Notes under the pieces: generated by a model
The model's database searches: none
What the model was told of the DNA's origin: nothing
What the model saw: the letters and a program-made list of their open reading frames with translations, nothing else
Assembly: GCA_022794265.1 (NCBI GenBank)
Contig: JAAWEK010000003.1
Span: forward strand, 1-64,000
Origin: Lachnospiraceae bacterium
Lineage (GTDB): Bacteria > Bacillota > Clostridia > Lachnospirales > Lachnospiraceae
Length of the DNA stretch: 64,000 nucleotides
Direction of reading: 5' to 3'
Shown here: positions 53,050 to 63,352 of the stretch, piece by piece
How the letters are laid out: every line of letters begins with the position of its first letter
Position numbering within the stretch: position 1 is the stretch's first letter
Made by a program: the position numbers and the translations under genes

Positions 53050-53393
53050 GGGGTTGTACTGGTTTCGACGGGGTTTTAGAAGTTAGGGAAGCCACCCGTG
53101 GACTAGGACCACGATAAAACTTAGAAAATTAAAATTAAACGCAAACGATAACGTAGCGTACGCTGCCTAGTGGCAGCTGTCGACCTTAAGCCTCCCGCTG
53201 CTTAAGACTCGGCATCGACTTTGCGGGGCACTTTCTTTCCAAAGCTTTGAGGTAAGAAAAGATTTATGAAGCTACTAAGGTTTTAAGCCTGTCAGCAGGC
53301 ATAAGACTGAGGGAATGATAAATATGCTGACTGTGGTGGGAGAAACTTTAATGGAAGAGGCTTCGGACACGGGTTCGATTCCCGTCAGCTCCA
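53050..53393 (+). ncRNA. ssrA: Transfer-messenger RNA (tmRNA)
   Basis: The 5' end GGGGTTGTACTGGTTTCGACGG and the 3' tRNA-like end with GGGTTCGATTCCC are diagnostic. The acceptor stem forms seven pairs (53050-53056 with 53386-53392), and A53393 is the discriminator; CCA is not encoded. The tag frame at 53141-53170 reads ANDNVAYAA then TAG, starting at a GCA resume codon. Pseudoknot-like repeats fill the middle. SmpB and RNase R, its partners, are encoded upstream. It rescues stalled ribosomes and marks their products for degradation. Confidence 0.97.
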
Positions 53394-53398
53394 TAGTA

Positions 53399-53438
53399 GA
53401 AAAGCTTTGAAAACAAATATGTTTTCAAAGCTTTTTTT
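53399..53438 (+). terminator. Terminator of ssrA and insertion target of the intron
   Basis: AAAAGCTTTGAAAAC pairs with GTTTTCAAAGCTTTT, followed by a T run. The group II intron begins two bases beyond the T run. Confidence 0.92.
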
Positions 53439-53439
53439 A

Positions 53440-55351
53440 GTGCGCCTTGCGGCGCACGTCGCTAATGGGTGAAAGTCCCTAATCCGCCCTAGTAGTGGGA
53501 AGGATACAGCCAAGACCAAGGGTGTCCTATTCATAGCACCGATTATGATTAACGTGAGGGGAATCTGAAGGAAGGTGGAGGCAAATCTCTGGTCTGACGT
53601 ACAGAAATCACATCAGGCTATAGTTAAGGATAAGGCTGCTAAACAAGTCGAAGTCCAATAACTACTCGGAATTAACTGTAGTAGATGTGGCAGATATATG
53701 GAGAGAAAGTGACGTGTGGTACCAAGGGAGGTCTTGTCAGCGGATGAAAACAGAGTATGAAATCCGTGAGTAACAACGAATGGCAAGAAGTCAGCAGAAA
53801 CCATAGTAAACCGATGGTTGCAAACATCGGCGAAGGGTTGAACTTTAGGAGACACAAGCAATGAATGTAACTGAAAGTAGATTTAAGAACAGACAACTTC
53901 ATATTGAGGACTATCTGCAAATGGTATCTGCGGAACAGAAAGAGTATGCAGAAGTGTTCGGCTACCGTAAGATTGCTGAAAAGAGCGGTGTCATCACAGA
54001 CTATTGGACGGATAATCTGTTGGAATTGATTTTACGCAAAGACAATCTTAATAAAGCCTATAAGCGAGTGAAATCAAACAAAGGAGCTGGTGGAATGGAT
54101 GGTACGCAGGCAGATGAACTTCTGCCCTTCCTAAGAGAAAACCAAGATAATTTAATCCAAGAGATAAGGAACGGTAAATTTAAACCGAACCCAGTCCGAA
54201 GGGTAGAAATACCCAAAGAAACAAAAGGCGAGTTTCGTAAACTTGGAGTTCCGACAGTGGTAGACCGAGTGATACAACAGGCAATTACACAGGAACTTAC
54301 ACCAATCTATGAGGAGCAATTCTCAGAAAACAGTTTTGGTTTTCGCCCGAAAAGAGGACAACAGGATGCTCTCAGACAATGCCAAAAGAATGTAAACGAT
54401 GGCTATGTATATGTAGTGGATATGGACCTGGAGAAGTTCTTTGATACGGTATGCCAGAGCAAGCTGATAGAGGTGCTGTCAAGAACTGTCAGGGATGGCA
54501 GGGTTATCTCGCTTATACACAAATATCTCAATGCGGGAGTGCTCGTAAATGGGATGTTTGAAAGAACAGAAGTAGGAATGCCCCAGGGAGGACCGCTTAG
54601 TCCCTTGCTTAGTAACATCATGCTAAATGAGTTAGACAAGGAATTGGAACGTAGAGGACACAGATTTGTCCGCTATGCAGATGATTGTATGATTTTCTGC
54701 AAGAGCAGAAAGAGTGCACAGAGAAGCCTGGAAAACATCATTCCATTCATAGAAGGGAAACTTTTCTTAAAAGTGAATCGGAAGAAAACGGGCGTGGCTC
54801 ATATCAGCAAAGTAAAATACCTTGGATATAGTTTTTACAGGTATAAGGGAAAATGCAGATTTAGGGTACATCCGAAGTCAGTAGCTAAAATGAGAAATAA
54901 AATCAGAGAGCTTACAGACAGAAACAATGGCATGAGTAATACTAAGCGTGAGGAAAAGTATCAGCAGTATGTGAGAGGGTGGGTAAACTACTTTAAACTT
55001 GCTGATATGAAACAGCTTCTTAAAGAAACAGATGAGTGGGCAAGACGCAGAATCAGGGCAGTCTGTTGGAAACAATGGAAGAGAATCAGGACAAAATACC
55101 GAATGCTGAAAGCATTAGGTTTGGAACATTGGAGGGCCAAGGAACTCGCGTGTAGCCGGAAAGGTTATTGGAGAATGGCACAAGTATTGAACCAAATTTT
55201 TTCAAAAAAATAATAGCCAAGCTGGGATACACATCCATGCTTGACTATTATCTGATTGTCTGTGAAAACTAAGGAACCGCCGTATACGGAACCGTACGTA
55301 CGGTGGTGTGGGAGGACGGTAAGTAAAATAATTATTTACCTCCTACCCGAT
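53440..55351 (+). mobile_element. Group II intron, IIC-like, inserted after the ssrA terminator
   Basis: The element begins GTGCGCC at 53440, opening a hairpin (GTGCGCC/GGCGCAC), which fits the GUGYG 5' end. It ends near CCTACCCGAT at 55351, which fits the AY 3' end. Domain V is readable at about 55274-55307 (CCGCCGTA with TACGGTGG and internal loop AACC), with a CGC triad as in class C. Domain VI follows (GGTAAGTAAA...TTTACC). It encodes a reverse transcriptase without an endonuclease domain. Insertion directly behind a terminator hairpin is the known target choice of IIC introns. Boundaries are good to a few bases. Confidence 0.85.
53861..55213 (+). CDS. ltrA: Group II intron reverse transcriptase/maturase (frameshifted C-terminus)
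   Basis: The 450-residue protein has the RT domain (fingers and palm with GFRPKRGQQDAL, VVDMDLEKFFDTV, the MPQGGPLSPLL motif and catalytic YADD in FVRYADDCMIF) and a maturase X domain (KVKYLGYSFY, YVRGWVNYF). There is no HNH endonuclease. It ends SKK-TAA after a run of seven A. With eight A the frame would continue about 20 more codons to a natural TAA at 55270-55272 (the alternate frame reads AKLGYTSMLDYY). A one-base deletion is therefore likely. TAGGAG lies upstream of the ATG. Confidence 0.93.
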   Translation: MNVTESRFKNRQLHIEDYLQMVSAEQKEYAEVFGYRKIAEKSGVITDYWTDNLLELILRKDNLNKAYKRVKSNKGAGGMDGTQADELLPFLRENQDNLIQEIRNGKFKPNPVRRVEIPKETKGEFRKLGVPTVVDRVIQQAITQELTPIYEEQFSENSFGFRPKRGQQDALRQCQKNVNDGYVYVVDMDLEKFFDTVCQSKLIEVLSRTVRDGRVISLIHKYLNAGVLVNGMFERTEVGMPQGGPLSPLLSNIMLNELDKELERRGHRFVRYADDCMIFCKSRKSAQRSLENIIPFIEGKLFLKVNRKKTGVAHISKVKYLGYSFYRYKGKCRFRVHPKSVAKMRNKIRELTDRNNGMSNTKREEKYQQYVRGWVNYFKLADMKQLLKETDEWARRRIRAVCWKQWKRIRTKYRMLKALGLEHWRAKELACSRKGYWRMAQVLNQIFSKK

Positions 55352-56516: not shown

Positions 56517-57854
56517 ATGGGCCAGAATAAAGATGAAAAAAAAGTTGATTCTATAATAGATGATTCCATAGAAGAAATGGATGAAGCAGATAAAATTTTA
56601 AAAGAACTGGATGAAATAGAAAAGAAAAAAGAGAAAGATATTTCGTCAAAAGTACGGGATTTAATTAAGAGCGATAAAGAAGCAATTCGGGATTATACAG
56701 CAAAAAGAGAGAAGAATAAACAAAAAGAATCTGAAATGGAAGAAAATGATACAATCGAAACGGATTCTGATGTGGAACTGAATGTATTTATTGAATATGA
56801 ATCAGAAGAAGGAAAGAACAGAAATATTCAATCAAAAAAGAAAGAACGCAGAGCCACCCGGAATAAAAAACAACAAAGCATAGATAAAAAAAATAGTTTG
56901 TCTGAATACGAAAACGACAAGACAGAACCAGAAGAGGAGAGAACGGAAGAGGAAGCTGAGAAAGAAGATTTTTTAGGTTCTCTTGACAAACGAACCAAAC
57001 ATATTGTCAATGAGAGAATCAGAAAAAAACAGCCGAATCGTTTAAAACCAAAGGATAATACATTACAGACAAATACAGGATTTATTTCTAATATAAGGAG
57101 CCTGGCAATGGCAGAAATAAAAAATACGGTTGTTTTTATTTCTATCATCGCTTTAACGATAATTTTATTTGCAGCCATGATTTTGGATAGAAATCATTTA
57201 TCGAATGAAAAAAATCAGGGTGCTTTTTTGGAAATGGATACCACAGGTATTGTTTCTTTGTTTAATGATTATTATACAGCCCTGGCCAATAATGATATTA
57301 ATAAAGCAAAAGAATATTTGGAAGAATCTTCAGATTTATCAGATGATATTCTGTTGGAAAAAGTAAAAGAAACACAAGTATATAAAGAGCAGATTAGTGA
57401 TTCTTTTAAGATTGTTCATTGCTATCTTCAGAAGGGACTGAAAGAGAATGAATATATTGCATATTTTAAGTTTGAATTGAAATTTAAAGAAGTAGAGACA
57501 CCTGCGGTCGGTATATTTTCCAGTTATGTGGTGAATTGTTCCGTAGATAAAGAAAAGCAGGACTATAAAATATGCAATGTAGATAAAATGTCCGACCGCT
57601 ATAAGCATATGGCAAGAATGAGTAACTGTAGTAATGTTACCGAGGTTTTTAAACAGACAGATAAAGAATTAATGGATGCATGTGAAAAGGATGCGGCATT
57701 AAAGAAGGTAGTAGATGTGCTTCGAATGGCTGGAAAAAATGAATCTGAAACCACAACTGCAGAAACCGGCAGCTCTGAAAATAATATGGAAAGTGTAACT
57801 GTGTCAGAAGAAATGTCGTCTGTGAATGAGAGTACAACTGTTGCGGCAGAATAA
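56517..57854 (+). CDS. Single-pass membrane protein with acidic coiled N-terminus, unknown function
   Basis: The 445-residue protein has a long, highly charged cytoplasmic region (about 1-200, Glu/Lys/Asp-rich, coiled-coil-prone, with EEMDEADKILKELDEIEKKK near the start), one membrane helix (about 204-226) and an extracytoplasmic domain (about 240-390). That domain, with SLFNDYYTALANNDINKAKEYL, resembles NTF2-like folds. A Ser/Thr/Glu-rich tail ends the protein. I do not recognise a family. A GTGG-type site supports ATG 56517; TTG 56496 is an alternative. Confidence 0.75.
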   Translation: MGQNKDEKKVDSIIDDSIEEMDEADKILKELDEIEKKKEKDISSKVRDLIKSDKEAIRDYTAKREKNKQKESEMEENDTIETDSDVELNVFIEYESEEGKNRNIQSKKKERRATRNKKQQSIDKKNSLSEYENDKTEPEEERTEEEAEKEDFLGSLDKRTKHIVNERIRKKQPNRLKPKDNTLQTNTGFISNIRSLAMAEIKNTVVFISIIALTIILFAAMILDRNHLSNEKNQGAFLEMDTTGIVSLFNDYYTALANNDINKAKEYLEESSDLSDDILLEKVKETQVYKEQISDSFKIVHCYLQKGLKENEYIAYFKFELKFKEVETPAVGIFSSYVVNCSVDKEKQDYKICNVDKMSDRYKHMARMSNCSNVTEVFKQTDKELMDACEKDAALKKVVDVLRMAGKNESETTTAETGSSENNMESVTVSEEMSSVNESTTVAAE

Positions 57855-57880
57855 AATTCGTTAAATTTTTACATTTTTTG

Positions 57881-57909
57881 TTGACGAAATCAGATTAACG
57901 TATTATAAT
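57881..57909 (+). promoter_or_regulatory. Promoter of gdhA
   Basis: TTGACG (57881-57886) and TATAAT (57904-57909) are exactly 17 bases apart, placing the start of transcription near 57917, just ahead of the leader hairpin. Confidence 0.8.
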
Positions 57910-57922
57910 ATGTCTCGAGAAT

Positions 57923-57980
57923 GATACCAAAGGCGGTTACAGGGCTCACTTTGTTTTTGCGCCTTATTGGTATCTTTTTT
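57923..57980 (+). promoter_or_regulatory. Terminator-like leader of gdhA (possible attenuator)
   Basis: GATACCAA with AGGCG (57923-57934) pairs with GCGCC and TTGGTATC (57959-57974), followed directly by six T. The hairpin lies between the gdhA promoter and its start codon, so uncontrolled it would stop transcription before the gene. The loop of about 24 bases is T-rich and I do not recognise a known riboswitch, T-box or protein-binding motif in it. A competing antiterminator is not obvious. Confidence 0.6.
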
Positions 57981-58004
57981 GTGTTATGTGTATTAATTAT
58001 GTGA

Positions 58005-59354
<1,350 letters not shown>

Positions 59355-59410
59355 TGTCCCATGATTTTTCAATATTTATAAATCTGTAATACAAATATTA
59401 TTTTGCGTCA

Positions 59411-59439
59411 TTGACAAACAGAGGAATAAGACATATAAT
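59411..59439 (+). promoter_or_regulatory. Perfect consensus promoter of a small RNA
   Basis: TTGACA (59411-59416) and TATAAT (59434-59439) with exactly 17 bases between is a full-consensus promoter. No open reading frame follows on this strand. Transcription should begin near 59446. Confidence 0.85.
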
Positions 59440-59445
59440 ATACTT

Positions 59446-59545
59446 AACAAGTGAGCCGATAGCTAGAATACACCTAGCCGCCGGTAATTGCTAAATTAAA
59501 AAATAGCGCTTTATCTTACCAGGACAGAGGCGCTATTTTTTGTGT
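59446..59545 (+). ncRNA. Putative antisense RNA antitoxin
   Basis: The predicted RNA is about 100 bases long, runs from a consensus promoter to a perfect 12-base-pair terminator (59498-59509 with 59530-59541), and contains no ribosome binding site or open frame. GCTAG (59462-59466) pairs with CTAGC (59474-59478) to give an upstream hairpin. Its 3' part is complementary to the 3' end of the minus-strand toxin message, including the stop codon and last few codons. This is the geometry of type I antitoxins such as RatA. It resembles no riboswitch I know. Confidence 0.7.
59498..59541. terminator. Bidirectional terminator shared by toxin and antisense RNA
   Basis: AAAAAATAGCGC pairs perfectly with GCGCTATTTTTT around a 20-base loop. 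It gives a T run on both strands. The toxin stop codon (59535-59533) lies within the stem. Confidence 0.85.
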
Positions 59546-59619
59546 GTTAAATTGCATACAAGAGTGATAACAGCACAAAGCATAATTACAAAAGTAAATA
59601 ATTCGCTATATGTAACCAT
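59533..59619 (-). CDS. 28-residue holin-like type I toxin
   Basis: ATG at 59619 opens 28 codons ending TAG at 59533. The peptide begins MVTYSELF, has one continuous hydrophobic stretch (about residues 7-24), and ends THKK. The pattern of a Tyr-Ser/Glu start, single membrane helix and basic tail matches holin-like toxins of the TxpA/BsrG group. AAGGGAG lies about 10 bases upstream. A promoter is present at 59711-59684 (TTGTAG, 16 bases, TATACT). It would insert in the membrane if made freely. Secondary structure around the binding site may delay translation. Confidence 0.75.
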   Translation of the reverse strand: MVTYSELFTFVIMLCAVITLVCNLTHKK

Positions 59620-59683
59620 TGGCACCAGCTCCCTTCTTTAGTATCCGGTAACTGGTATAATCGCCCCATCGGCTCCCTGGGTA

Positions 59684-59711
59684 AGTATATTATGGGTTCA
59701 TTTATCTACAA
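59684..59711 (-). promoter_or_regulatory. Promoter of the toxin message
   Basis: On the minus strand TTGTAG (59711-59706) and TATACT (59689-59684) are 16 bases apart. It is weaker than the antisense promoter, as expected if antitoxin RNA is kept in excess. It lies directly after a terminator hairpin (GGGAATAC with GTATTCCC at about 59713-59740) that closes the next gene on that strand. Confidence 0.55.
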
Positions 59712-59712
59712 A

Positions 59713-59740
59713 AGGGAATACCGTTTGTAGCAGTATTCCC
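59713..59740 (-). terminator. Terminator of the secreted SH3-like gene
   Basis: GGGAATAC and GTATTCCC form an eight-base-pair stem with an 11-base loop, followed on the minus strand by a short T run. It ends the gene at 59790-60146 before the toxin promoter. Confidence 0.75.
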
Positions 59741-59789
59741 TTGCAATGTAGTAGCTTATTAATTATATGTTTTTATATGAGAAAATAAA

Positions 59790-60146
59790 TTATTGGCCTA
59801 CTATTTTAACGTATTCCGCAGCAACATAGCCATAGACGTATCCGTATTTGCATGGATACCACAGTATACCATCAGACTCTATAGCATTCGCTTTATCAAT
59901 TTGAATAAAATAAGCTCGTTGTAAAGTCATTAAAACAGTACCAGCCAGACCCGGAGCGTCTTTCATTGCTACATTGTCTTCCGTTATTATAGCTGGTGTG
60001 GCATAATTTATATCACTAATTGGAGCAATATTTGTTATATCATTTGAACCATCAGTAATTTCTTTTGCCTGCGCAGGTATAGAAATTGGCAGTATTAACA
60101 TTGCACTCATCATTAGTAATGATAATGTTCTTTTAAATTTCTTCAT
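59790..60146 (-). CDS. Secreted SH3-like small protein
   Basis: The 118-residue protein begins with a signal peptide (MKKFKRTLSLLMMSAMLILP, cleavage likely after ...AQA near residue 27). The mature part, NVAMKDAPGLAGTVLMTLQRA and WYPCKYGYVYGYVAAEYV, has the pattern of a bacterial SH3 (SH3b) domain that binds wall peptides. AAGGAGG precedes ATG 60146. It may bind peptidoglycan outside the cell; its partner is unknown. Confidence 0.82.
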   Translation of the reverse strand: MKKFKRTLSLLMMSAMLILPISIPAQAKEITDGSNDITNIAPISDINYATPAIITEDNVAMKDAPGLAGTVLMTLQRAYFIQIDKANAIESDGILWYPCKYGYVYGYVAAEYVKIVGQ

Positions 60147-60254
60147 TATTAGTAACCTCCTTGATACCTTATAATTACTCCTACATTGCATATATCATTA
60201 TATACCATTATTTGACATTTGAATAGTATTAAAATGACATTTTTAATGTAATTA

Positions 60255-60410
60255 TTATTTATTGTTATTATTCCTTATAAGTATATTTGTCAGCAGATCG
60301 CTAAGTACTTGCAGATTGGAAGCCAGTTCTTCCAACTGCTGTTCCGAGAGACATTCGGAAAGCTGACAGGCAACAAGGGAAAGCAGATAGAGGTTTGAGC
60401 AGTCATTCAT
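60255..60410 (-). CDS. DUF6774-like 51-residue protein
   Basis: ATG at 60410 on the minus strand opens 51 codons ending TAA at 60255. The product starts MNDCSNLYLLSLVACQLSEC and continues with a Leu-rich helical hairpin (EELASNLQVLSDLLTNIL) and an Asn-rich tail. The Ser/Ala-Cys spacing and length match small proteins of Clostridia grouped as DUF6774. CGGAG lies about 12 bases upstream. Function unknown. Confidence 0.65.
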   Translation of the reverse strand: MNDCSNLYLLSLVACQLSECLSEQQLEELASNLQVLSDLLTNILIRNNNNK

Positions 60411-60476
60411 GAGTCACAAAACTCCGTAAATAATTTATATAATATATGATGACTTTAAGAAAACATGAATAAGAAG

Positions 60477-60523
60477 AAAAGGTAACAGTCATAGTATACA
60501 AAATTTATGACTGTCACCTTTTA
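60477..60523 (-). terminator. Terminator of the Bfd-like gene
   Basis: AAAAGGTAACAGTCAT pairs with ATGACTGTCACCTTTT with one mismatch around an AT-rich loop. On the minus strand it is followed by TTTT, closing the Bfd-like gene and any read-through from the penicillin-binding protein gene. Confidence 0.8.
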
Positions 60524-60570
60524 AAAATATTGAAAGATAAAATAAGCATAAGAGCGGTAAATTGCCGGCT

Positions 60571-60744
60571 TTATGAAAATTCGTCAATCAGATGCTGAAT
60601 ATCATCAAGACATACACCGCATACAGTTCCGGCTCCGGTGAGTTCCTGCACTTCTTCTAATGTTTTGGCACCATTCTCTACCGCTTCCTTAATCATTCCG
60701 TTTGTAATATTTAAACAGGTACAAACAACTTTATCTGGATCCAT
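60571..60744 (-). CDS. Bfd-like [2Fe-2S]-binding small protein
   Basis: The 57-residue protein has four cysteines in the pattern VVCTCLNIT near the start and GTVCGVC in the middle, with the helix TLEEVQELTGAG between. This is the BFD-like fold that binds a [2Fe-2S] cluster and serves as a ferredoxin or as a domain of nitrite reductases and other oxidoreductases. AGGAGG precedes ATG 60744 on the minus strand. It lies about 50 bases downstream of the penicillin-binding protein gene, in the same orientation. Confidence 0.88.
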   Translation of the reverse strand: MDPDKVVCTCLNITNGMIKEAVENGAKTLEEVQELTGAGTVCGVCLDDIQHLIDEFS

Positions 60745-60796
60745 ATGAATACCTCCTTTTGATATTAATATGTGCAGATAAAATTAAATTATACAG

Positions 60797-63352
60797 TTAA
60801 TTTCCGCCGTGAACCGGACAGAAATTATTAATCAGATTCTCCGGTACGCAATATGGGGTATCACTGGTGTATCCATTGCTTCCGGCAGGGCGGACGCGAT
60901 AAATTTTATCCACTTTTGCTTCGGCAGGACAATTGTCGGTTGCAATTAATCCGGAAGCCGCACAAAGGGTATATTTTTGGTGAATATCACAGGTATCGGT
61001 AGGTACGGTTCCCTTTGCAAAATACTCCATTGTAACCTTGCTGCCTTCCTGATCATTGTTACAGATTCCGTCTACGGCAAGTTTGCCTGACTTGGAGCAA
61101 ATTTGTGCAGTGATAATAGATTCGGGAGCCGGAAAACCAATGTCTTCGGTATAACCTTTTGTTTCGTTTATTCTGGTCATAATCCTGCTCCACATGGTTT
61201 CGTGATAAGAACCATGGGCGATTGGTGCATTTTCATCGAATCCGGTCCAGACAGTAGCAGTCAGGTAAGGAGTATAACCAGAGAACCACAAGTCGTTATC
61301 GTTTGTTGTAGTACCGGTCTTACCGGCAACCGTCATACCCGGAACCCTACAGGCTGTACCGGTTCCACCAGTGATAACATCTTCCATTGCGTTGGTCAGC
61401 AGCCAGGCGGTAGATTCTTTTAATACCCTGTGGGTGGATGGGGTTGTATTATCCAAAAGGACTTTTCCGTTATGGTCTAATACTTTGGTATATAATACCG
61501 GTTCTGTATAAACACCTCCGTTTGCAATGGAAGCATAAGCAGAACATAATTCAAGATTGGTAACGCCATAAGTTATTCCTCCAAGGGCAAGGGCCTGTCC
61601 AATATCGCTTACAACGCTTCCGTTATTCAGGGTTTTTTTGGAAACCAAAGTTGTAAATCCAAATTCCTGTAAATAATCAAATCCCAGCTGAGGAGTAATG
61701 GCGGTTATCAGCTTACTGGTAACAACATTCATGGAATCCCTAATACCTGTACGCATAGTAGATAATCCTCTGTAAGAATTTCCCCACCAGTTACTTACGG
61801 GACGTCCGTTAATATCATTAAATGGAGAATCGTCAATAATGGAAGACAGTGTATAGCCTGCTGTATCAATAGCAGGCGCATAAGCAGCCAGAACTTTAAA
61901 ACAGGAGCCGGGCTGTCTTGGAGTATCCGTTGCACGATTCAGTGTCAGGCTCCGGGTTTTATCACCCCTTCCGCCTACGATGGCTTTCACATAGCCGGTT
62001 TTCTGGTCCATAACCGTAAATGAAGTCTGGGGCTGAAGAGTATAAATCAGGTTTTCGGCCAGCGGAGTCTCTCCCTCGTGAAGATATTCTGCTTTAAATG
62101 CAGCAATACAGGCGTCAGCTTCTTCGGTGGAAGAAAAAATTAGTTTAAATTTAGGATTATTTAATATTACCCTGTGATAATAATCCAGATCCACTTTGGA
62201 ATAATTCCGTACGGTACCGTCTGCCAGCTCCACTGACCAGGCCCAGTCAACGGAATACTTTGTTGTAACCGGATAGCTGGCCGGATTATTTACTTCTTCG
62301 TCGCAGATGGACTGAATAGCCGCATCCTGTGTGGTATAAATACTTAATCCGCCACTGTATAACATATTGTGTGCCTGGGTACGGGAATATCCTTTTTGTT
62401 CCTGAAGATCAGTCATTACATCTTCGATTAAAGCATCTACAAAATAAGAATAAGGTGAAGTGGTTGAAGTTTGAATATTGATGGACTGTATTCTGGAATA
62501 AACATCATCATTCATTGCTTCATCAAATTCTGCCTGGGAAATATGTTCATTTTTAAGCATGTTTTTAAGTACTTTTTCCCTCCGTTTGGCATTTTCCTCC
62601 GGATCTGTCACCGGGTTAAATGCAGACGGATTCTGAGTGATGGCAGCAATCACTGCAGATTCGGAAATATTTAAATCCTTGGCATCTTTATTGAAGTAAC
62701 GTTTGGAAGCGGCCTGCACACCCAGACAGTTGGAGCCGAGATTGATGGTGTTCAGATAACTCTGAAGAATATAGGTTTTTGGCATGGTTTTCTCCAACTG
62801 CAGCGCCAGATACTGTTCCTGGAATTTTCTCTTAAATAATGCGCCAAGGTTTGATTCGGCACCGCCATTTTCAAATACGTTGTTTTTTAATAACTGCTGG
62901 GTGATGGTGCTGGCGCCTTCTGAAAACCTCCGGGTAGTAATGGCAACTACACCGGCACGAATGATACCCTTTATATCAATACCGTTATGTTCTAAAAAAC
63001 GTTCGTCTTCAATATCTATAAAAGCATATTGCAGACATTCTGGAATTTCGTCAATCGTAACTTCCTGTCGGTTGGAGCCGGATTTTATAAGTTTGCTGGT
63101 TACATTTCCGTCGGAATCGTAAACTGTAGTAGAATATCCGGTGGGAGCAACATTTAAAGATTCAATATCCGGGGCATTCTCTATAATTCCTTTGATCATT
63201 CCAAATCCGGTAAAACCTATGACAACAATTACCAGAACCACAAGATATAAGGAAAATTTAAAGGTATTTACCAATATTTTTGTGGTAAGTTTTTTGGATT
63301 TTGAAGCATAGGCTTTCCGTTTTTCAACGGTTTTATTATATCCAAAATTCAT
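60797..63352 (-). CDS. Class A penicillin-binding protein (bifunctional PBP1a type)
   Basis: The enzyme polymerises and crosslinks peptidoglycan at the outer face of the membrane. The 851-residue protein has a cytoplasmic start, a membrane helix (about 34-56), a GT51 glycosyltransferase domain (EDERFLEHNGID, GASTITQQLLKN, QEQYLALQLEK) and a transpeptidase domain with SxxK (PGSCFK), SxN (DSMN) and KTG (GKTGTT) motifs. The Cys-rich C-terminal part (about 740-851) resembles clostridial PBPs. AGAGG precedes ATG 63352; an upstream ATG at 63376 overlaps the site. Confidence 0.95.
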   Translation of the reverse strand: MNFGYNKTVEKRKAYASKSKKLTTKILVNTFKFSLYLVVLVIVVIGFTGFGMIKGIIENAPDIESLNVAPTGYSTTVYDSDGNVTSKLIKSGSNRQEVTIDEIPECLQYAFIDIEDERFLEHNGIDIKGIIRAGVVAITTRRFSEGASTITQQLLKNNVFENGGAESNLGALFKRKFQEQYLALQLEKTMPKTYILQSYLNTINLGSNCLGVQAASKRYFNKDAKDLNISESAVIAAITQNPSAFNPVTDPEENAKRREKVLKNMLKNEHISQAEFDEAMNDDVYSRIQSINIQTSTTSPYSYFVDALIEDVMTDLQEQKGYSRTQAHNMLYSGGLSIYTTQDAAIQSICDEEVNNPASYPVTTKYSVDWAWSVELADGTVRNYSKVDLDYYHRVILNNPKFKLIFSSTEEADACIAAFKAEYLHEGETPLAENLIYTLQPQTSFTVMDQKTGYVKAIVGGRGDKTRSLTLNRATDTPRQPGSCFKVLAAYAPAIDTAGYTLSSIIDDSPFNDINGRPVSNWWGNSYRGLSTMRTGIRDSMNVVTSKLITAITPQLGFDYLQEFGFTTLVSKKTLNNGSVVSDIGQALALGGITYGVTNLELCSAYASIANGGVYTEPVLYTKVLDHNGKVLLDNTTPSTHRVLKESTAWLLTNAMEDVITGGTGTACRVPGMTVAGKTGTTTNDNDLWFSGYTPYLTATVWTGFDENAPIAHGSYHETMWSRIMTRINETKGYTEDIGFPAPESIITAQICSKSGKLAVDGICNNDQEGSKVTMEYFAKGTVPTDTCDIHQKYTLCAASGLIATDNCPAEAKVDKIYRVRPAGSNGYTSDTPYCVPENLINNFCPVHGGN

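Follow-up and report, generated by a model that had tools for sequence, protein, structure and literature searches.

A minus-strand frame of 28 codons in the window (the whole stretch of DNA analysed here, 64,000 nucleotides) ends within a terminator that is approached from the other strand by a full-consensus promoter, which raises the question of whether the arrangement represents a toxin with its antisense antitoxin, a regulatory RNA with an incidental frame, a membrane peptide of another function, or a chance combination of unrelated elements. The original prediction, made from the sequence alone, favoured a type I toxin-antitoxin pair in which the antisense RNA acts on the 3' end of the toxin message. 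The type I pair stood as the best reading and gained comparative support; pairing at the 3' ends alone appears to be an incomplete account, and a second contact at the Shine-Dalgarno sequence (SD) is indicated. The locus is very probably a chromosomal type I toxin-antitoxin pair with two antitoxin contacts, one at the terminator and one at the SD, and it is the conserved frame, the facing promoter, the terminator, and the RNA structure that make such a pair the most likely explanation.

The frame with its AAGGGAG site, the plus-strand promoter, and the perfect terminator holding the toxin stop codon are all present as originally described (Table 1). The antitoxin promoter is the sole 12/12 site in a scan of positions 57000-62000. 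The toxin promoter originally placed at 59711-59684 fared less well: its hexamers, TTGTAG/TATACT, match the consensus poorly, and no hexamer pair upstream of the toxin scores above 8/12, a value within the range of control flanks, which mostly score 7-9 (113/125). The terminator was absent from a simple terminator scan, its loop presumably exceeding the 8-base limit of that scan, and it constitutes the only region of full overlap between the two RNAs (~44 nt). The peptide is short and hydrophobic with a charged end, and a membrane location is predicted from its sequence. The A/T tract of the terminator also encodes the C-terminal KK; at positions 59533-59541 of the window, the C-terminal lysine codons are at the same time the T tract of the antisense RNA terminator, and through this double use the RNA may dictate the KK end of the peptide. 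The locus lies between a gene at 58020-59354, which we take to encode a glutamate-dehydrogenase-like protein, and a small secreted-protein-like ORF at 59790-60191, which gave a weak SH3_3 match in a Pfam search.

Table 1. Features of the putative toxin-antitoxin locus in the window
Feature	Position	Strand	Basis
Antitoxin RNA promoter, TTGACA-17-TATAAT, 12/12	59411..59439	+	Hexamer scan
Predicted antitoxin (antisense) RNA, ~98 nt, both ends inferred	59446..59543	+	Sequence and covariance model
Antitoxin 5' hairpin, outer CCG/CGG, inner GCTAG/CTAGC	59453..59485	+	Covariation, duplex energy, identity test
Bidirectional intrinsic terminator common to both RNAs, containing the toxin stop codon	59498..59541	.	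Perfect inverted repeat AAAAAATAGCGC...GCGCTATTTTTT
Toxin ORF, 28 aa, MVTYSELFTFVIMLCAVITLVCNLTHKK	59619-59533	-	ATG start, 28 codons; stop TAG 59535-59533
Shine-Dalgarno AAGGGAG, then CTGGTGCC (similar in many relatives)	59629..59635	-	Sequence and relatives
Toxin leader element CAGGGAGCCGATGGGGCGATTATACCAGTTACCGG	59645..59679	-	MFE fold, cognate-specific duplex tests, likeness to antitoxin 5' domain
Toxin promoter -10 region CATAATATACT, without good -35	59684..59694	-	Hexamer scan
Predicted toxin mRNA, ~188 nt, ends inferred	59495..59682	-	Fold analysis
Toxin mRNA terminator loop region TCCTGGTAAGA, containing CUGG (YUNR-type)	59514..59524	-	Fold

In the MFE fold of the window toxin mRNA, ACCAG of the leader pairs in cis with CTGGT beside or at the SD region, so that the SD is hidden, and the leader's GGGGCG is predicted to be capable of pairing with the terminator's 5' arm. 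The 3' arm of the antitoxin hairpin, CACCTAGCCGCC, can in turn pair with the toxin SD region according to prediction, with a duplex energy of -13.5 at the window locus. Among the 60 loci in which terminator loops were found, a YUNR motif occurred in 46 and CTGG in 29, which is weak evidence, the motif being short and the count having no chance control.

When 299 genomes of the same family were searched with the peptide, 53 gave a match at E<=0.1, the own genome counted among them; two of the 53 (G011 and G148) proved on reading to be non-homologous frames, and nine weaker matches were not fetched. The loci read were 30 from this search and those of 40 further stretches; after removal of duplicates, of L041 (which repeats L023), and of the non-homologous L069 and L070, the set comprised 69 distinct toxin loci. 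The facing promoter scored at least 10/12 and lay 75-115 nt beyond the stop in 58/69, the stop codon fell within a terminator stem in 60/69, an SD-like sequence was present in 67/69, and the peptide ended in K or R in 64/69; the family-wide search for frame, terminator, and facing promoter that had been proposed earlier thus found the same combination widely repeated. The toxin frame is under purifying selection, and the expectation of a frame conserved with synonymous changes was borne out: among 28 distinct 28-codon frames, in pairs differing at <=35% of bases, pN/pS was 0.32 in the coding frame versus 0.95 and 1.31 in the two alternative frames.

Four loci depart from the common anatomy. 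The antisense RNA is lost in L016 and L048, the antitoxin 5' hairpin is lost in L017, and the facing promoter is poor in L009; these four were judged damaged on visual inspection and excluded from the 65-locus tests described below, although the covariance model R1 does give matches at L009 and L017. Over the 65 loci, the antitoxin promoters score 12/12 in 32, at least 11/12 in 46, and at least 10 in 60, whereas the toxin promoters reach at least 10 in 14/65 (4/125 control flanks) and score 8 or 9 in 45/65. The toxin promoters are slightly above the controls, and the antitoxin promoters are much better than the toxin promoters.

At greater phylogenetic distance, a peptide profile search at the class level gave matches in 30/391 genomes at E<=0.01, several of the weak ones lying within frames of >200 residues and probably being false. 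Within the genus, R1 gave only two weak matches (E ~0.004 and ~0.009) in the eight other genomes. In the nearest congener (G182), gdhA was found (85%); since the DNA beyond it is unrelated, no empty site was seen in this comparison. The frame reached in G182 by the DNA past gdhA is presumably a phage-type integrase.

The antisense RNA structure is conserved, with compensatory changes. It was derived from a sequence-only alignment of 43 main-subfamily loci, nine damaged or divergent loci of the 52 being omitted, and comprises a 5' hairpin followed by the terminator. In this alignment, 97.1% of cells are paired and 14/21 pairs are changed on both sides, with 0/500 shuffles reaching as high a value; slid-partner controls gave pairing of <=54.5%, a comparison in which the structure is favoured by having been derived from the same alignment. 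The window RNA scores 111.8 bits (9.2e-19) against R1, the locus being among the 43 used to build the model. Rfam gave no family at gathering score for the antitoxin RNA in the window, and tRNAs only in 20 other loci.

The 5' domain of the antitoxin resembles the toxin leader in the same sense over ~45 nt, rather than complementing it. Over the 65 loci, the mean local identity score was 14.1 for cognate versus 8.3 for non-cognate leader and antitoxin pairs (0/5000 permutations); the test was significant overall and within each subfamily (0/5000), and the result for all 69 loci was similar (13.7 versus 8.2; 0/5000). The likeness extends to loci with STYE-type peptides (32 loci, 0/5000, z 9.3). 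Resolved by position in 59 loci, it starts at about -10, includes the bases around the -10 and the start site, and is absent from the DNA upstream of -12; identity is 0.82 in the arms (positions 14-20) versus 0.48 in the centre (20-28), in an analysis that mixes the subfamilies and in which every leader was anchored on its own antitoxin, a procedure biased towards cognate identity close to the anchor. Gene conversion seems unlikely as the sole cause of the likeness, because identity falls in the centre relative to the arms and the upstream DNA is unlike. Direct complementarity between leader and antitoxin is not favoured either: a reverse-complement alignment control was not cognate-specific (468/5000), and the antitoxin:leader duplex energies were only slightly so (32/3000; 14/3000 in subfamily 1).

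Duplex prediction for the two RNAs, proposed at the outset as a check, yielded cognate-specific pairing between the antitoxin 5' domain and the SD over the 65 loci (z -5.1, 0/3000), and the leader:SD and leader:terminator arm duplexes were cognate-specific to the same degree (0/3000 each). All three held in the 52 loci of subfamily 1, with 0/3000 for antitoxin:SD. In the 13-locus second subfamily alone, leader:SD was modest (42/3000), leader:terminator marginal (258/3000), and antitoxin:SD not cognate-specific (837/3000). The antitoxin:terminator arm duplex was not cognate-specific over the 65 loci (2377/3000); among the control duplexes, antitoxin:ORF was borderline (135/3000) and leader:ORF went in the opposite direction (2991/3000). 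The pairings of the SD and the leader in cis, in trans, and with the terminator arm suggest a possible reason for the likeness between leader and antitoxin.

Comparison of the relatives shows conservation of the frame, the promoter, the terminator, and the RNA structure, together with leader likeness and cognate-specific predicted pairing energies, and from these we propose the following mechanism. The strong plus-strand promoter would give rise to a short structured antitoxin RNA, and the weaker minus-strand promoter to an mRNA for a 28-residue peptide that would insert into the membrane and, in excess, is probably toxic. This mRNA would be made with its SD already paired to its own leader, for which the terminator arm is a further possible partner. 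Two sites of the mRNA would be contacted by the antitoxin: the shared terminator, where complementarity is full and pairing probably begins at the loops, and the SD, reached through the antitoxin's first hairpin, which appears to be a same-sense copy of the anti-Shine-Dalgarno element of the leader. Translation would thereby be prevented both in cis and in trans, and RNase III may cut the RNA duplex, the order of these events being presumed.

The proposed arrangement, with one contact at the terminator and another at the SD, resembles that described for par(pAD1) in PMC7472228. Both systems have convergent promoters and a bidirectional terminator, the toxin promoter here being weak, and both have a second complementary region over the SD or start, which here is cognate-specific over 65 loci and not in the 13-locus subfamily alone. 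The window peptide differs from Fst in that it contains no proline and hence lacks the PXXXG motif; among the Pfam and NCBIfam matches of 51 members there was likewise no Fst family. As further differences from par(pAD1), the antitoxin 5' domain is here a same-sense copy of the leader over ~45 nt, and several peptide types occur on a common chassis. The locus shares with TxpA/RatA and BsrG/SR4 of Bacillus subtilis a short membrane peptide and a 3' overlapping antisense RNA, and is unlike them in that the overlap is only ~44 nt and the peptide has 28 aa. The toxin mRNA shows weak similarity to Rfam BsrG (20.9 bits for the window, 27.8 for L002, against a cut-off of 55), and no Rfam RatA match was obtained in the window or the 20 loci searched. 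TxpA/RatA, cited originally among the known type I systems, thus gives way to par(pAD1)/Fst with respect to RNA architecture, the peptide not being Fst-like; the predicted architecture is par(pAD1)-like, with a Hol_Tox/PepG1-like peptide in place of Fst.

The earlier statement that the peptide has no nameable long match beyond a holin-like pattern applies to the window peptide itself, which matched neither Hol_Tox nor PepG1 in Pfam and NCBIfam and reached E 0.13, not significant, with a PHROG holin. It does not apply to its relatives. Pfam Hol_Tox (PF16935, Putative Holin-like Toxin) was matched by 18/51 members at E<=1, with a best value of 2e-07; among eight typed peptides, two pass the Hol_Tox cut-off of 23.3 bits, L059 with 27.8 and a STYEEL type with 29.8, and the second copy in the own genome scores 20.9. 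NCBIfam PepG1 (type I toxin, NF041589) was matched by 14/51 members at E<=1, with a best value of 5.2e-05, which is still weak; the curated PepG1 cut-off was compared for one peptide only (12.7 bits versus 70). In the titles and abstracts of open-licence papers, we did not find the RNA family or the leader copy described.

The RNA is more widespread than the peptide type of the window. R1, the model of the main RNA, gave matches in 120/299 family genomes at E<=0.01, and R2, built from the 13 second-subfamily loci, in 144/299 at E<=0.001; their union comprises 177/299, with different E limits for the two models, which also find the loci they were built from and whose E-values are rough. In the class at large, at E<=0.001, R2 was found in 88/331 genomes (eight of the same family) and R1 in 9/331 (four of the same family). 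The 48 R1 matches read were those away from VTYSDLF-type toxins, picked from a longer list; 34 lie on a STYE-type (Hol_Tox-like) frame, including L022 (poor SD) and L150 (truncated), and 14 have no STYE-type frame. The 30 R2 matches read comprise eight VTYSDLF-type loci (all eight used in R2), two SDFE, 12 LIAV..FGLGY, L221 with an intact frame and no SD, L230 with a frame running past the usual stop, and six with no frame. Four LIAV-like peptides gave no significant match in Pfam or NCBIfam.

Several individual loci illustrate this variety. The own genome holds a second chassis copy (G000:C9:166827-166944, L100) with the STYEEF-type peptide MSTYEEFMVILTVALLIVAILNLKNKK, and in the congener G182 a second-subfamily RNA chassis (L181:1316-1620) surrounds the peptide type MSIVDFIAVVSFGLTCFGIGYSFGKDNNKTQK, to which the LIAV..FGLGY peptides are related. 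Tandem chassis pairs within a few hundred bases were seen at L022, L023, L038, L067, and L149, and at L022 and L038 the toxin types differ. The antitoxin start motif also occurs in 22 viral-contig stretches (L182-L203), one of them with two copies, and a toxin-like frame was present at 18/23 of these sites in a simple ORF test; a tblastn search of the phage and plasmid collections with a consensus-like peptide was negative.

These observations bear on four other explanations of the locus. A type I pair acting by 3' overlap only, in the style of TxpA/RatA and BsrG/SR4, with the leader likeness as a by-product of an inverted duplication and homogenisation at the DNA level, seems to us rather unlikely. 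It would account for the confinement of full complementarity to the terminator, for the weak Rfam BsrG matches, for the non-significance of antitoxin:SD pairing in the second subfamily alone, and for a likeness that takes in the bases around the -10 and the start site, which RNA pairing leaves unexplained. However, the arms are more alike than the centre (0.82 versus 0.48, with cognate anchoring favouring identity near the anchor), there is no likeness upstream of -12, and SD pairing is cognate-specific over 65 loci, all of which argue for the two-contact pair. Chance association of an unrelated promoter, ORF, and terminator, to which a very short frame and the random origin of short repeats might lend some appeal, is refuted by the comparative data, in which the same anatomy recurs in many genera with compensatory changes, and we regard it as practically negligible.

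Loss of the frame is informative for the two remaining explanations. The situation that the original prediction had set against itself, an RNA kept while the frame is broken, does occur: 20/78 RNA matches read have no intact frame (20/70 among new matches, since eight of the 78 are R2 model loci) and two more have a damaged one, as might be expected of a stand-alone regulatory small RNA with a 28-codon frame that is incidental to the terminator and the leader. We nevertheless consider such an RNA very unlikely, because in 56/78 matches a small frame is intact and stops within the terminator, purifying selection acts on the frame, changes in the RNA go together with changes in the toxin leader and, for the main subfamily, in the SD, and visual inspection shows a toxin remnant in 12 of the 20 matches that lack a frame; we read the frameless matches as putative decayed toxins. 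The peptide could also serve in lysis or secretion in the manner of a holin, or be some other small membrane effector, for instance a competence inhibitor resembling ComI, and be under antisense control without forming a toxin-antitoxin module. Matches to PHROG 3488 (holin; 20/51 members at E<=1, best 1.3e-05) and to NCBIfam ComI (11/51 at E<=1, best 6.2e-06), as well as the copies on viral contigs, would fit this alternative, which we nonetheless think improbable given that some members match the type I toxin PepG1 (14/51) and that RNA without a frame (20/78) seems commoner than toxin without RNA (2 to 4/69). The latter comparison, between samples that were drawn differently, is suggestive only, and fits a course of decay that requires loss of the toxin before that of the RNA.

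If the type I pair with two contacts is generalised, it is about evenly balanced whether these loci represent a widespread type I chassis of Clostridia, in which same-sense anti-Shine-Dalgarno copies in the antitoxin RNA and the toxin mRNA evolve in concert as a cis/trans off-switch, and into which unrelated membrane-toxin peptides are swapped. Should this be true, peptides named only as putative holin-like toxins, or not named at all, would be parts of toxin-antitoxin pairs, and such pairs would occur in the majority of the sampled family genomes (177/299 with chassis RNA by two models at different E limits). The concerted copy shared by leader and antitoxin would offer a testable case of a trans antitoxin arising from a cis switch, and the common chassis would serve as a sequence handle for finding new toxin peptides.

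Elsewhere in the window, Rfam matches at 53050-55351 indicate a tmRNA gene closely followed by a group II intron, with a 450-residue frame that we take to be the reverse transcriptase of the intron. At the window start (11-435), a TwoAYGGAY RNA is followed by a TPP riboswitch (Rfam).
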